Source of the DNA: Caldilineaceae bacterium
Lineage (GTDB): Bacteria > Chloroflexota > Anaerolineae > Caldilineales > Caldilineaceae
Length of the DNA stretch: 64,000 nt
Direction of reading: 5' to 3'
Assembly: GCA_958295845.1 (NCBI GenBank)
Contig: OY282376.1
Location: forward strand, 3,733,022-3,797,021
Shown: piece after piece, positions 25,413 through 30,437 of the stretch
Layout: each line of letters opens with the position of its first letter
Numbering within the stretch: the stretch's first letter is position 1
Translations under genes and position numbers: made by a program
Notes under the pieces: model-generated
What the model was told of the DNA's origin: nothing
Database searches by the model: none
What the model saw: only the letters and a program-made list of their open reading frames with translations

Positions 25413-26621
25413 ATGGATGGAATCAACTCTGGAGATACTGCCTGGATCATCGTCGCCACCGCATTGGTGCTGATGATGACACCGGCACTGGGTTTCTTTT
25501 ACGGCGGTATGGTCCGCCGAAAGAACATCCTCTCCACTCTTAACCTCAGTTTCATCACGATTGGTCTCATCAGCATTCAGTGGGTCGTCATTGGGTATAC
25601 GCTGGCCTTTGGCACGAGTGTGGCCGGGCTGGTCGGCGGTCTTGACTACATTGGACTGTCAAATGTCGGTACGGAGGCGCTGGAAGGGCTGTCCATACCC
25701 CACCTGCTTTTTGCCGCGTTCCAGATGACATTTGCCATCATTACGCCCGCGCTGATTTCGGGGACGTTCGTGGAACGAATTCGTTTCAAGGTGTACCTGG
25801 TCTTCGCGGTACTGTGGGCAACGCTGGTCTATGACCCGGTCTGCCACTGGGCCTGGGGCGGCGGCATCTTTGCCCGATGGGGCGCGCTGGACTTTGCCGG
25901 CGGGACTGTGGTGCATATTACGGCCGGTTTCTCGGCGCTGGCGTTTGCGACGGCAATCCGCAAGCGCAAGGGTTTCGGACAGGTGGCTATCGAGCCGCAT
26001 AATATCGCATTCACAGTCTTGGGTGCAGGCCTGCTGTGGGTAGGCTGGTTTGGCTTCAACGGCGGCAGCGCACTTGCGGCCGACGGTCTGGCGGTGCAGG
26101 CCATAGTGAACACGAATACGGCTGCTGCTGCCGCAGCGGTAGTTTGGATGTTCCTGTCCTGGCGTGACAATAAGCCCAGCGTTCTGGGTATTGTGACGGG
26201 CGCCATTGTTGGCCTGGTTGCGATCACGCCGGCGGCCGGCTTCGTCACGCCGATGGCAGCGCTCCTAATTGGCGCGATAGCGGCGCCTGTAAGCTACTAC
26301 AGCATCGATTTCCGAGAGAAGAAGGGCCTTGACGAAAGCCTGGATGTGTGGGCCTGTCATGGCATGGCGGGAACTTGGGGTGCGCTGGCAACCGGCCTGT
26401 TTGCGACGGCGGCAGTTGGCGGGACTGACGGTCTCTTCTACGGCAACCCCACGCAGTTTGGAATTCAGATCATGACGGTCATCGTGACAATTGTGTACTC
26501 GTACGCAATCACGTTCATACTGACTAAGATTCTGGATGCGGTTTGGGGCCTGGCCGTCACCGAGCAGGAAGAGGAGATTGGGCTGGACATCAGCGAGCAC
26601 GGCGAACGCGCGTATGCGTGA
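25413..26621 (+). CDS. amt: Ammonium transporter (Amt/MEP family)
   Basis: 402-residue channel-type transporter for ammonium with about 11 membrane helices. Seen: ALGFFYGGMVRRKN (Amt signature near the N-terminus), GGTVVHITAGFSALAFA and VWACHGMAGTWGALATG, which carry the twin pore histidines. The C-terminal cytosolic tail EEEIGLDISEHGERAYA is the region that PII proteins contact in the family, and two PII genes follow directly. The ATG at 25413 is chosen because AGGAGGAAACAGG lies just before it; the frame is open from a TTG 27 bases upstream. The stop is TGA in the context TGA-CTA, and the frame stays open behind it (next entry). Confidence 0.96.
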   Translation: MDGINSGDTAWIIVATALVLMMTPALGFFYGGMVRRKNILSTLNLSFITIGLISIQWVVIGYTLAFGTSVAGLVGGLDYIGLSNVGTEALEGLSIPHLLFAAFQMTFAIITPALISGTFVERIRFKVYLVFAVLWATLVYDPVCHWAWGGGIFARWGALDFAGGTVVHITAGFSALAFATAIRKRKGFGQVAIEPHNIAFTVLGAGLLWVGWFGFNGGSALAADGLAVQAIVNTNTAAAAAAVVWMFLSWRDNKPSVLGIVTGAIVGLVAITPAAGFVTPMAALLIGAIAAPVSYYSIDFREKKGLDESLDVWACHGMAGTWGALATGLFATAAVGGTDGLFYGNPTQFGIQIMTVIVTIVYSYAITFILTKILDAVWGLAVTEQEEEIGLDISEHGERAYA

Positions 26622-26762
26622 CTAGCGAGGCACGGTGGCGAAGGTACGTACTTTGAAGAAGCCGCTGATGCTGAAGAAGCTGAAGCGGTTGTAGATAGCG
26701 AAGTCAGCGAGTACAGCGAGCAAGTGGAGGTCAGCGATAGTAGTGAACAAGAGGACGCCTAG
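26622..26762 (+). other. In-frame acidic extension after the amt stop codon
   Basis: Directly after the amt TGA the same frame remains open for 46 codons to a TAG at 26760-26762. It encodes an acidic, Ala/Glu/Ser-rich sequence (ARHGGEGTYFEEAADAEEAE, then VSEYSEQVEVSDSSEQEDA). The composition is protein-like, and HGGEGTY partly echoes HGERAYA before the stop, as if the end of the gene had been locally duplicated. Either this is a decayed 3' end of a once longer gene, a sequencing error, or a tail added by stop-codon readthrough; UGA followed by CUA is a leaky context in other systems. Confidence 0.5.
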
Positions 26763-26781: not shown

Positions 26782-26807
26782 GGGTCGTGCGGTTAGCCGC
26801 ACGACCC
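26782..26807 (+). other. Stem-loop between amt and the first PII gene
   Basis: GGGTCGTGCGG and CCGCACGACCC form a perfect 11-bp stem with a TTAG loop. It begins 20 bases after the end of the amt extension and lies 48 bases before the PII start. No T-run follows, so it is likely a processing, attenuating or stabilising element that sets the amt/PII transcript ratio rather than a full terminator. Confidence 0.6.
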
Positions 26808-26854: not shown

Positions 26855-27298
26855 ATGCTCAAGAAGGTTGAAGCCTACATCCGGCTCGAAAAACTGACCG
26901 ACGTAAGGTCAGGGTTGGTGAAGGTCGGGGTCCCGGCAATCGATACGGTTGAAGTGCAGGGACTTGGAAGGCAGACCGGCATCAGGCTGGCCGGACGGCA
27001 GAGCAGCTACACCGTCGACACATTGCCTCGTCTTCGCTTGACTGTGGTTGTGGACGAGGAGGATGTCGCCCAAATTGTAGAGACGATCAGGGAGGCAGCT
27101 GCTACAGGAACACAGGGCGACGGTGCAATACATATCTGCCCAGTAGAGAATCTGGTCCGAATCAGCACAGGGGAGGAAGGCGAAGACGTGCTGGTCTATG
27201 AAGGAGATATCGACATTCAGGGAATTCTTTCGCCTCCTCCCGATCTCAGCGATCTATTTGCATTCTATCTGGAAAGGAAGTACAGAATAGAGGAATGA
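26855..27298 (+). CDS. PII-type signal protein, long form (first copy)
   Basis: 147-residue GlnB/GlnK homologue. Core alignment by eye: the T-loop GRQTGIRLAGRQSSYTVD keeps the Gln39-equivalent (Gln40), the Ser49-equivalent (Ser50) and the modifiable Tyr51-equivalent (Tyr52). The B-loop ATGTQGDGAI and C-loop RISTGEEGED are present. Compared with the E. coli GlnB sequence, Lys58 is Arg, Lys90 is Ala and Arg103 is Ser; all three are ligand- or ATP-site positions. About 35 residues extend past the normal end (112), including SPPPDLSDLFAFYLERKYRIEE. AGGAGAGGAG precedes the ATG. A role in controlling the upstream Amt is inferred from gene order. Confidence 0.88.
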   Translation: MLKKVEAYIRLEKLTDVRSGLVKVGVPAIDTVEVQGLGRQTGIRLAGRQSSYTVDTLPRLRLTVVVDEEDVAQIVETIREAAATGTQGDGAIHICPVENLVRISTGEEGEDVLVYEGDIDIQGILSPPPDLSDLFAFYLERKYRIEE

Positions 27299-27359: not shown

Positions 27360-27752
27360 GTGTTCAAAAAGATCGAAGCGTACATCCGACAGGAGAAACT
27401 GGACGGTGTCCGGCTGGCTCTGATTGAAATTGGCGTCCCCGCTGTCGATACTGTCGAAGTGCAGGGTCACGGTCGTCAGAGTGGAATCAAGCTTGCCGGG
27501 CGGCACAGCACCTATGTGGTGGATACGTTGCCCCGAATTCAGCTGAATCTGGTTGTAAGCGAGGATGATGTTGCTCAGGTGGTTGAAACCATCCAGAGGA
27601 CGGCGGCCACCGGCACCCAAGGCGACGGTGCGATCTTCATCTGTCCCGTGGAAAACATCATTCGAATCAGCACGGGGGAGCAAGGAGACGATGCGCTCGT
27701 CTTCGAAGGCGAGATAGATATCTCCGAACACAAAGTCGATGGAGATGACTAG
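27360..27752 (+). CDS. PII-type signal protein (second copy)
   Basis: 130-residue paralogue of the preceding gene, clearly a tandem duplicate by protein similarity. Its T-loop reads GRQSGIKLAGRHSTYVVD, again with the Gln39-, Ser49- and Tyr51-equivalents kept. It shares the same substitutions at the Lys58-, Lys90- and Arg103-equivalents (Arg, Ala, Ser). The C-terminal extension is shorter (about 18 residues, FEGEIDISEHKVDGDD). The start is GTG with AGGAGA about 8 bases upstream. Between the two PII genes lies only a weak 7-bp stem (TCTCTCG/CGAGAGA). The two copies may form homo- or heterotrimers. Confidence 0.88.
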   Translation: MFKKIEAYIRQEKLDGVRLALIEIGVPAVDTVEVQGHGRQSGIKLAGRHSTYVVDTLPRIQLNLVVSEDDVAQVVETIQRTAATGTQGDGAIFICPVENIIRISTGEQGDDALVFEGEIDISEHKVDGDD

Positions 27753-28802: not shown

Positions 28803-30437
28803 TCAGTTTGGATCGTACAGGAAGAACCACTTCACATTCAGGTAAGCGTCGTAGCCGTCGGCTTTCATGGTCTGGATGGCAGCGTTGAATGGCGCGGTCC
28901 ATGTGCTGCCGGGTGTGAAGATGAAGCCGAACTCCTCAGTCGCCAAGGCCTCACCCACGATTTTGAGCTTCTCCGGGTTGGCGCCGATGTAGCCGCGGCC
29001 AGAGGCGGCATCGACCAGCACCATGTCTACGTCGCCAGCGATCAGTGCCTGCACCGATGCCCCGAAGTTGTCGAGCAACTGGATGCGCGGGTTGGCCTCG
29101 TCGCCGTCCAGAATGTCGTACACGGCTGTGTAGAAGCCGGTGGTGCCAGCCTGCGCACCGATCAGCAGTGCGGAATCGGCGGCGAAGGCGTCGGCCGTTT
29201 CAAAGCGCTCCTCGTCGGCGCGCACAAGCATGAACTGCTGGCTGGTCATGTAGGCATCAGAGAAATCGACCACTTCGGCACGTTCAGCCGTGATGGTGAT
29301 GCCGTCCATGCCTACGTCGAACTGACCTTCGGCCACGGCCTGGATCATGGCCTCCCACGAGGTAACCTGCCAGTTGACGACACAGTTGAGACGACGGCAG
29401 ATCTCGTTGACGGCGTCATATTCCCAGCCGACAGCCTCGCCGCTGGCCGGGTCGATGAAGTTGAGCGGAATGAAGTCGTTGCCCGTTACGGCAACAACCT
29501 CCGCTCCGTCCATGTCGGGCAGACTGTTATAGATGTCGGCGGCGTTGGGATCTGTGAGGAAGAACCAGCGGGTATTGAGATAGGCCAGGTAGCCGTCCTC
29601 TTTCATCGTCTGGATGGCAGCGTTGAAGGGCGCGGTCCATGTGCTGCCGGGCGTGAATATGAAGCCGAACTCCTCGGTCGCCAAGGCCTCACCCACGATC
29701 TTGAGCTTCTCCGGGTTGGCGCCGATATAGCCGCGACCAGAGGCGGCATCGACCAGCACCATGTCCACGTCGCCGGCGATCAGTGCCTGCACTGATGCTC
29801 CGAAGTTGTCGAGCAGCTGGATGCGCGGGTTGGCCTCGTCGCCATCCAGAATGTCGTACACGGCGGTGTAGAAGCCGGTGGTGCCAGCCTGTGCGCCGAT
29901 CAGCAGTGAGGCATCGGCGGCGAACGCGTCGGCGGTGTCAAAGCGCTCCTCTTCGGCGCGCACAAGCATGAATTGCTGGCTGGTCATGTAGGCGTCGGAG
30001 AAATCGACCACATCGGCGCGTTCAGCGGTGATGGTGATACCGTCCATGCCGACGTCGAACTGACCTTCGGCCACGGCCTGGATCATGGCTTCCCATGAGG
30101 TGACCTGCCAGTTGACGACACAGTTGAGGCGGCGGCAGATCTCGTTGACGGCGTCATATTCCCAGCCGACAGCCTCGCCGCTGGCCGGGTCGATAAAGTT
30201 GAGAGGCGTGTAGTCGTTGCCCGTTACGGCAACGATTTCGGCGCCGCCCATGTCCGGCAGACTGTCATAGACTACGTTTTTCATGCCGGTGGGCATGCGT
30301 GAATCTGAGGCCGGGGACTGCGCACCGGTCTCACCCGATGCCGTGGAGGGCGCGGCAGGTACACAGGCGCTCAGGGCCAGCGCAAGCAGGAGGAGGGTTA
30401 CCACAGGGCGTTGGATCAGTGCTAGATTCTTTGTCAT
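28803..30437 (-). CDS. Solute-binding lipoprotein with two tandem SBP_bac_3 domains
   Basis: 544-residue exported receptor of the polar amino-acid (family 3) type. The N-terminus is a lipoprotein signal peptide ending in the lipobox-like LALSAC (Cys25), then a Ser/Ala linker. Two complete binding domains follow, residues 57-298 and 303-544, joined by only four residues. Each has NFIDPASGEAVGWEYDAVNE, FDVGMDGITITAER and GFIFTPGSTW. By my count about 15 of 242 residues differ between them. The second copy ends exactly where the first does. One permease gene lies downstream. Family 3 proteins bind amino acids or small cations; the ligand here is unknown. Confidence 0.93.
   Translation of the reverse strand: MTKNLALIQRPVVTLLLLALALSACVPAAPSTASGETGAQSPASDSRMPTGMKNVVYDSLPDMGGAEIVAVTGNDYTPLNFIDPASGEAVGWEYDAVNEICRRLNCVVNWQVTSWEAMIQAVAEGQFDVGMDGITITAERADVVDFSDAYMTSQQFMLVRAEEERFDTADAFAADASLLIGAQAGTTGFYTAVYDILDGDEANPRIQLLDNFGASVQALIAGDVDMVLVDAASGRGYIGANPEKLKIVGEALATEEFGFIFTPGSTWTAPFNAAIQTMKEDGYLAYLNTRWFFLTDPNAADIYNSLPDMDGAEVVAVTGNDFIPLNFIDPASGEAVGWEYDAVNEICRRLNCVVNWQVTSWEAMIQAVAEGQFDVGMDGITITAERAEVVDFSDAYMTSQQFMLVRADEERFETADAFAADSALLIGAQAGTTGFYTAVYDILDGDEANPRIQLLDNFGASVQALIAGDVDMVLVDAASGRGYIGANPEKLKIVGEALATEEFGFIFTPGSTWTAPFNAAIQTMKADGYDAYLNVKWFFLYDPN
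28806..30269 (-). repeat. 738-bp intragenic direct repeat
   Basis: The two binding-domain units of the solute-binding-protein gene are near-identical at DNA level: 29544-30269 (first) and 28806-29531 (second), offset 738 bases. Differences are scattered and include many silent changes; the ends of each unit are the most divergent. This is a recent in-frame tandem duplication or one kept similar by gene conversion. Confidence 0.9.

Follow-up and report, generated by a model that had tools for sequence, protein, structure and literature searches.

An open reading frame behind the amt stop codon

The window, by which we mean the whole analysed stretch of 64,000 nucleotides, lies in a 5.4-Mb genome that consists of a single contig. 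It contains the ammonium transporter gene amt, followed by two genes for PII proteins (Table 1). The Amt protein matches the Pfam family PF00909 (Ammonium_transp) over residues 10-401 (E=3e-123, 411.9 bits), i.e. a full-length domain, and it aligns with AmtB and Amt structures of the PDB up to residue 401. Among named sequences, the best match came from an Anaerolineae MAG (75%), followed by a group at about 65% that includes a Chloroflexi MAG; an affiliation with the Chloroflexota is inferred from these matches. The gene ends with GAACGCGCGTATGCG-TGA, with the stop codon at 26619-26621. A preliminary description of this DNA had noted that the TGA is followed by CTA and by an acidic frame of 46 codons up to a TAG, and all these elements, as well as their coordinates, were confirmed.

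Table 1. Features at the amt locus (positions refer to the window)
Feature	Position	Strand	Remarks
amt, ammonium transporter, 402 aa	25413..26621	+	ends ...GERAYA-TGA
Proposed recoding signal GCG-TGA-CTA-GCG-AGG	26616..26630	+	last Ala codon, putatively leaky stop, 9 nt of 3′ context
Putative readthrough tail, 46 codons including the first CTA	26622..26759	+	LARHGGEGTYFEEAADAEEAEAVVDSEVSEYSEQVEVSDSSEQEDA; acidic, predicted disordered
Second stop TAG	26760..26762	+	would end the extended product; TAG or TAA in relatives
Hairpin GGGTCGTGC...GCACGACCC	26782..26807	+	strong; lies between the second stop (about 20 nt away) and the PII genes
PII protein 1	26855..27298	+	PF00543, E=2.6e-19; C-terminal extension ending ...ERKYRIEE
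PII protein 2, GlnK-like	27360..27752	+	PF00543, E=9.8e-22

The predicted tail contains 16 acidic residues (D/E) and a single basic one (K/R). It had no match in Pfam, and an AlphaFold model of Amt with the tail gave a pLDDT of about 30 in this region, which is uninformative beyond disorder. A single open extension proves little, because 18 of the 50 window frames of at least 250 codons continue in frame for at least 46 codons. The open extension is thus not significant in a single sequence, and it is the cross-species comparison that carries the case.

The tail is confined to one genus and follows an ancestral stop codon

We searched 17 genomes of the genus. In 16 of them, amt ends with GERAYA-TGA followed by CTA-GCG-AGG, the exception being the genome G004. 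The 16 species have acidic, Ser/Glu/Gly-rich tails of 34-52 codons, each closed by TAG or TAA, and the TGA in front of the tail is kept in all 16 and never replaced by a sense codon. In G004 and in the nearest other genera, the last Amt codon lies at the same place, the stop is either TGA or TAA, and no tail follows; in several tail-less relatives, the PII gene starts only about 15-50 nt behind amt. A scan of 396 genomes of the class found the Amt-end pattern with TGACTA only within the genus. As the outgroup Amt proteins end at the same residue, the comparison identifies the TGA as the ancestral terminus of Amt, behind which one clade acquired the tail. All 16 species belong to a single genus, and the signal may therefore have arisen only once.

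The tail evolves as a protein sequence

For the selection analysis, a codon model was run on a fixed amt tree with a tail alignment that had been built from the translation. The tail showed an omega of about 0.37 (lnL -1416.1 versus -1438.9 at an omega of 1; 2dlnL=45.5, p about 1.5e-11), and the relative rates at tail codon positions 1, 2 and 3 were 0.72, 0.70 and 1.58. Because the alignment was based on translation, we also carried out an alignment-free check with five ungapped tail pairs of equal length, leaving out the three codons next to the stop. The differences at codon positions 1, 2 and 3 amounted to 11, 14 and 39, so that 39 of 64 were at third positions (p=5.6e-6). The tail frame is open in 16/16 species, with 1-4 and 4-13 stops in the other two forward frames. 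Tail lengths differ by whole codons only, and the spacer behind the second stop shifts by 1-2 nt between relatives with equal tail length. Since repeated triplets could explain part of the in-frame indels, the substitution tests weigh more than the indel pattern. By these measures of sequence evolution, the tail is under purifying selection as a protein.

A 15-nt sequence around the stop codon is invariant

The preliminary description had proposed that a conserved TGA with conserved amino acids and synonymous change behind it would support readthrough, and it had regarded UGA-CUA as a leaky context in eukaryotes and UGA-C as weak in bacteria. The 3′ ends of amt in the 16 species agree with the former in every respect: the TGA and the amino-acid pattern are kept, and there is synonymous change behind the stop. 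As to the context, the invariant signal extends beyond the CTA, and 15 of 15 nucleotides are identical in the 16 species (GCGTGACTAGCGAGG is invariant in 16/16). At the stops of the two downstream PII genes, only 2/15 and 1/15 of the same positions are kept. Within amt, 208 columns have an invariant residue of degenerate type, but just 22 of them use the same codon throughout (Ala: 2/46). Two codons of the signal are rare in these genes, CTA making up 13 of the 677 codons for Leu and AGG 0 of the 167 codons for Arg. A rough product of the codon fractions for the four invariant codons is about 5e-5. Some caution is indicated, as amt also holds a 20-base invariant run elsewhere.

Within the genus, TGACTAGCGAGG occurs at a real gene end only in amt, and inspection of nearly all 97 TGACTAG sites of the source genome revealed no other convincing gene end of this kind with a long extension. 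These 97 sites compare with 822 for the reversed control, i.e. the motif is about 8x rarer; such a depletion is expected if CTAG is avoided, but amt retains the motif. Behind the amt stop, we found no conserved hairpin, with no consensus pairs and folding energies like those of shuffled sequences, and no Rfam families were detected downstream of it.

Possible routes into the tail frame

Independent initiation of the tail was excluded: in L005 and L015, the tail frame lacks any ATG, GTG, TTG, CTG or ATH codon, and the tail frames of the other species have no start codon in common. The +1 frame has TAG as its first codon, and stops interrupt the +2 frame in every species. As there is no alternative start, ribosomes must come from amt in frame, either by readthrough or by a hop. 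The conserved stop, the invariant signal, the selection at the protein level and the absence of another start can be taken as established, as far as sequences can establish them. In contrast, the decoding step, the inserted amino acid, the efficiency, the function and the extended protein itself are inferred.

We consider it quite probable that the tail is made by programmed UGA readthrough via a short linear UGA-CUAG signal, albeit without experimental evidence. Readthrough is favored because the amt site matches all seven UGA-CUAG bases and is conserved up to +12. Against it, the GCG on both sides of the stop and the AGG are fixed without an obvious reason in terms of readthrough. The foremost alternative is an in-frame stop hop, in which the Ala peptidyl-tRNA would detach from the GCG, pass over UGA-CUA and pair again with the same codon nine nucleotides further on. 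Translation would resume at AGG and the tail would be made, but the junction would read ...AYA-R and not ...AYA-X-LAR. UGA-CUA stands between two matched GCG codons in 16/16 species, even though invariant Ala columns of amt so rarely keep one codon (see above); stop hops between matched codons are known from synthetic constructs, and Atkins et al. have pointed out that some presumed readthrough might in fact be in-frame stop hops (PMC5009743). However, no natural in-frame case is known (PMC5009743), and the gap exceeds that of the classic synthetic case, in which the matched codons directly adjoin the stop. Moreover, GCG is the commonest Ala codon (404/884), which makes the match weak evidence, the conservation of CTA would not be required, and no structure was detected 3′ of the stop, with only the downstream side having been modelled. 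We therefore regard a hop as unlikely, though worth keeping in mind.

The remaining explanations have considerably less in their favor than readthrough. That the tail is untranslated and the region is preserved because of a role at the RNA or DNA level, be it a 3′ UTR element, a binding site or a triplet-repeat tract, would agree with the nucleotide-level conservation of the 15-mer, with the GAA/AGY/GGN repeats, in which slippage can partly give frame-keeping indels, and with the relaxed omega of the tail (0.37 versus <0.2 for amt). The period-3 substitution pattern, the purifying selection on amino acids and the stops in the other forward frames as opposed to the consistently open tail frame nevertheless speak against this view, which we judge improbable. 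Still less credible is the insertion of selenocysteine at the amt UGA by SelB and tRNA-Sec. The machinery is in place, with tRNA-Sec (anticodon TCA) in 17/17 genomes of the genus and with selB and selD in the source genome, where selD and a formate-dehydrogenase-like gene contain genuine in-frame TGA codons. However, these two genes bear stems with GGUC or GGUCU apical loops behind the UGA, whereas amt does not; no SECIS hairpin was found at amt, and GGTC is absent within 60 nt in 14 of the 16 amt genes and located at +11 in the other two. In addition, the tail-less G004 also has tRNA-Sec, and the homologues read have no Cys at the stop position, the ancestral state being a stop. A sequencing error and a recent nonsense mutation, both offered as competing explanations in the preliminary description, failed: 16 species whose genomes were assembled separately share the same TGA and tail, which excludes an error, and the outgroup Amt proteins end at the same residue, which excludes a recent mutation. 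General UGA reassignment was rejected as well: PII gene 1 ends with TGA in 13/14 genomes, 23 of the 50 long window frames end with TGA, prfB is present, and no UCA Trp tRNA was found among the best 30 tRNA loci. For these three, nothing beyond the single sequence could be put forward, and we regard them as practically out of the question.

Independently of amt, the two genes selD and the formate-dehydrogenase-like gene indicate that the source genome encodes selenoproteins.

Proposed mechanism and comparison with known recoding systems

In bacteria, termination at UGA is RF2-dependent. According to the readthrough mechanism that we propose, most ribosomes would terminate at the amt UGA and yield the ordinary 402-residue Amt, while a fraction would misread UGA as sense by means of a near-cognate tRNA. 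The signal, comprising GCG in the P site, the UGA and the 3′ CUAGCGAGG, would weaken RF2-dependent termination. One residue would be inserted, Trp being the likeliest guess, followed by Leu-Ala-Arg and the rest of a disordered acidic tail of 34-52 residues, and translation of the extended form would halt at the second stop codon. Two Amt isoforms would then coexist in the trimers of the cell. The tRNA-Trp is ordinary, with a five-pair anticodon stem and CCA, so that nothing outside the mRNA favors UGA decoding, and neither a suppressor tRNA nor a tRNA-Trp with a four-pair stem was found among the best 30 tRNA loci.

In bacteria, UGA-C terminates translation only weakly, which is exploited by the autoregulated prfB frameshift (PMC5289835). 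The prfB gene of the source genome retains the shift site ...CGG-CTT-TGA-C (CTTTGAC) with a purine-rich stretch upstream. The bacterial prfB site CUU-UGA-C resembles the amt site in that slow termination at UGA-C diverts ribosomes, but prfB makes use of a +1 frameshift that needs CUU and an upstream Shine-Dalgarno-like element, whereas the frame is unchanged in amt. With bacterial selenocysteine insertion, amt would share the recoding of an in-frame UGA and the presence of the machinery in the genus, but it lacks the SECIS hairpin and the GGUC loop. Stop hops and the bypass in T4 gene 60 (PMC5009743) likewise have matched codons around the stop, but no take-off structure was found in amt, and a natural in-frame case is unknown.

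The closest resemblance is to eukaryotic systems. UGA-CUAG causes efficient readthrough in vertebrate genes, for which about 12 nt of 3′ context are sufficient, and it is also present in some alphaviruses (PMC4132726). OPRL1, OPRK1, AQP4 and MAPK10 of vertebrates as well as the alphavirus UGA-CUA sites have the same UGA-CUAG as amt (PMC4132726). Like amt, the vertebrate genes have a linear 3′ context that needs no structure, a universally kept motif and a C-terminal extension under coding selection, and OPRL1 also has an Ala codon in front of the stop (GCA). The vertebrate and alphavirus cases differ from amt in that they depend on the eukaryotic ribosome and eRF1 instead of bacterial RF2 and concern unrelated genes, and conservation in amt extends further, to the GCG that precedes the stop and to position +12 on the 3′ side (GCGAGG). 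The likeness is presumably convergent. It has to be considered that the effect of UGA-CUAG is documented in eukaryotes and that its strength on bacterial ribosomes is not established. Among prokaryotic in-frame stops, those described by Belinky et al. (PMC7918605) are comparable in being conserved, having a dN/dS <1 and being read as readthrough, but they are mostly young nonsense changes within genes, whereas in amt an ancestral gene end is kept genus-wide with a dedicated signal. The part of the literature that was searched did not reveal any published chromosomal, genus-wide conserved bacterial readthrough site outside selenoproteins, which is of course no proof that none exists.

In a wider sense, it appears likely that amt represents either a recoding that converged on the vertebrate and alphavirus UGA-CUAG motif or, by way of the matched GCG codons, the first natural in-frame stop hop, with two Amt isoforms in either case that would tune ammonium uptake in a fixed or regulated ratio. 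If readthrough is confirmed, amt would be a rare example of stop-codon readthrough that is built into a bacterial chromosome and has a dedicated UGA-CUAG signal. It would also imply that UGA-CUAG works with bacterial ribosomes and RF2, and hence that it acts on a part of the ribosome or on a decoding step that is common to both domains. The signal is a small 15-nt element that is open to testing, and a single junction peptide makes natural in-frame stop hopping testable.

The tail and the PII proteins

The C-terminus of Amt is cytoplasmic, and it is established that the T-loops of PII plug Amt from the cytoplasmic side (for example, PMC3198391). A tail at the cytoplasmic face would probably alter PII docking or another cytoplasmic contact; this function is plausible but inferred. 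If a minority of the subunits in the trimers carry the tail, PII might dock less firmly, or a different partner might be recruited. If this holds true, there would be a translational route to mixed transporter trimers beside PII, in a system that is usually described as being controlled by PII binding. As a further possible role, readthrough could keep transcription coupled to translation as far as the PII genes.

Two PII genes are found behind the tail-bearing amt. In G004, the stretch that was read shows only one, and PII protein 1 was not seen behind the tail-less amt. PII gene 1 is decaying in some relatives, being broken across frames in L015 and apparently degenerate in L016. The tail persists in both and thus outlasts the decay of PII gene 1, which argues that it does not depend on PII protein 1 alone. 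The hairpin in front of the PII genes is kept in most relatives and has no U run, and L015 and L016 have a different hairpin at this place; it is perhaps a U-less terminator or a stabilizer of the mRNA 3′ end. Further downstream, on the opposite strand (28803-30437), the window encodes a 544-aa solute-binding protein that apparently consists of two near-identical amino-acid-binding domains in tandem.
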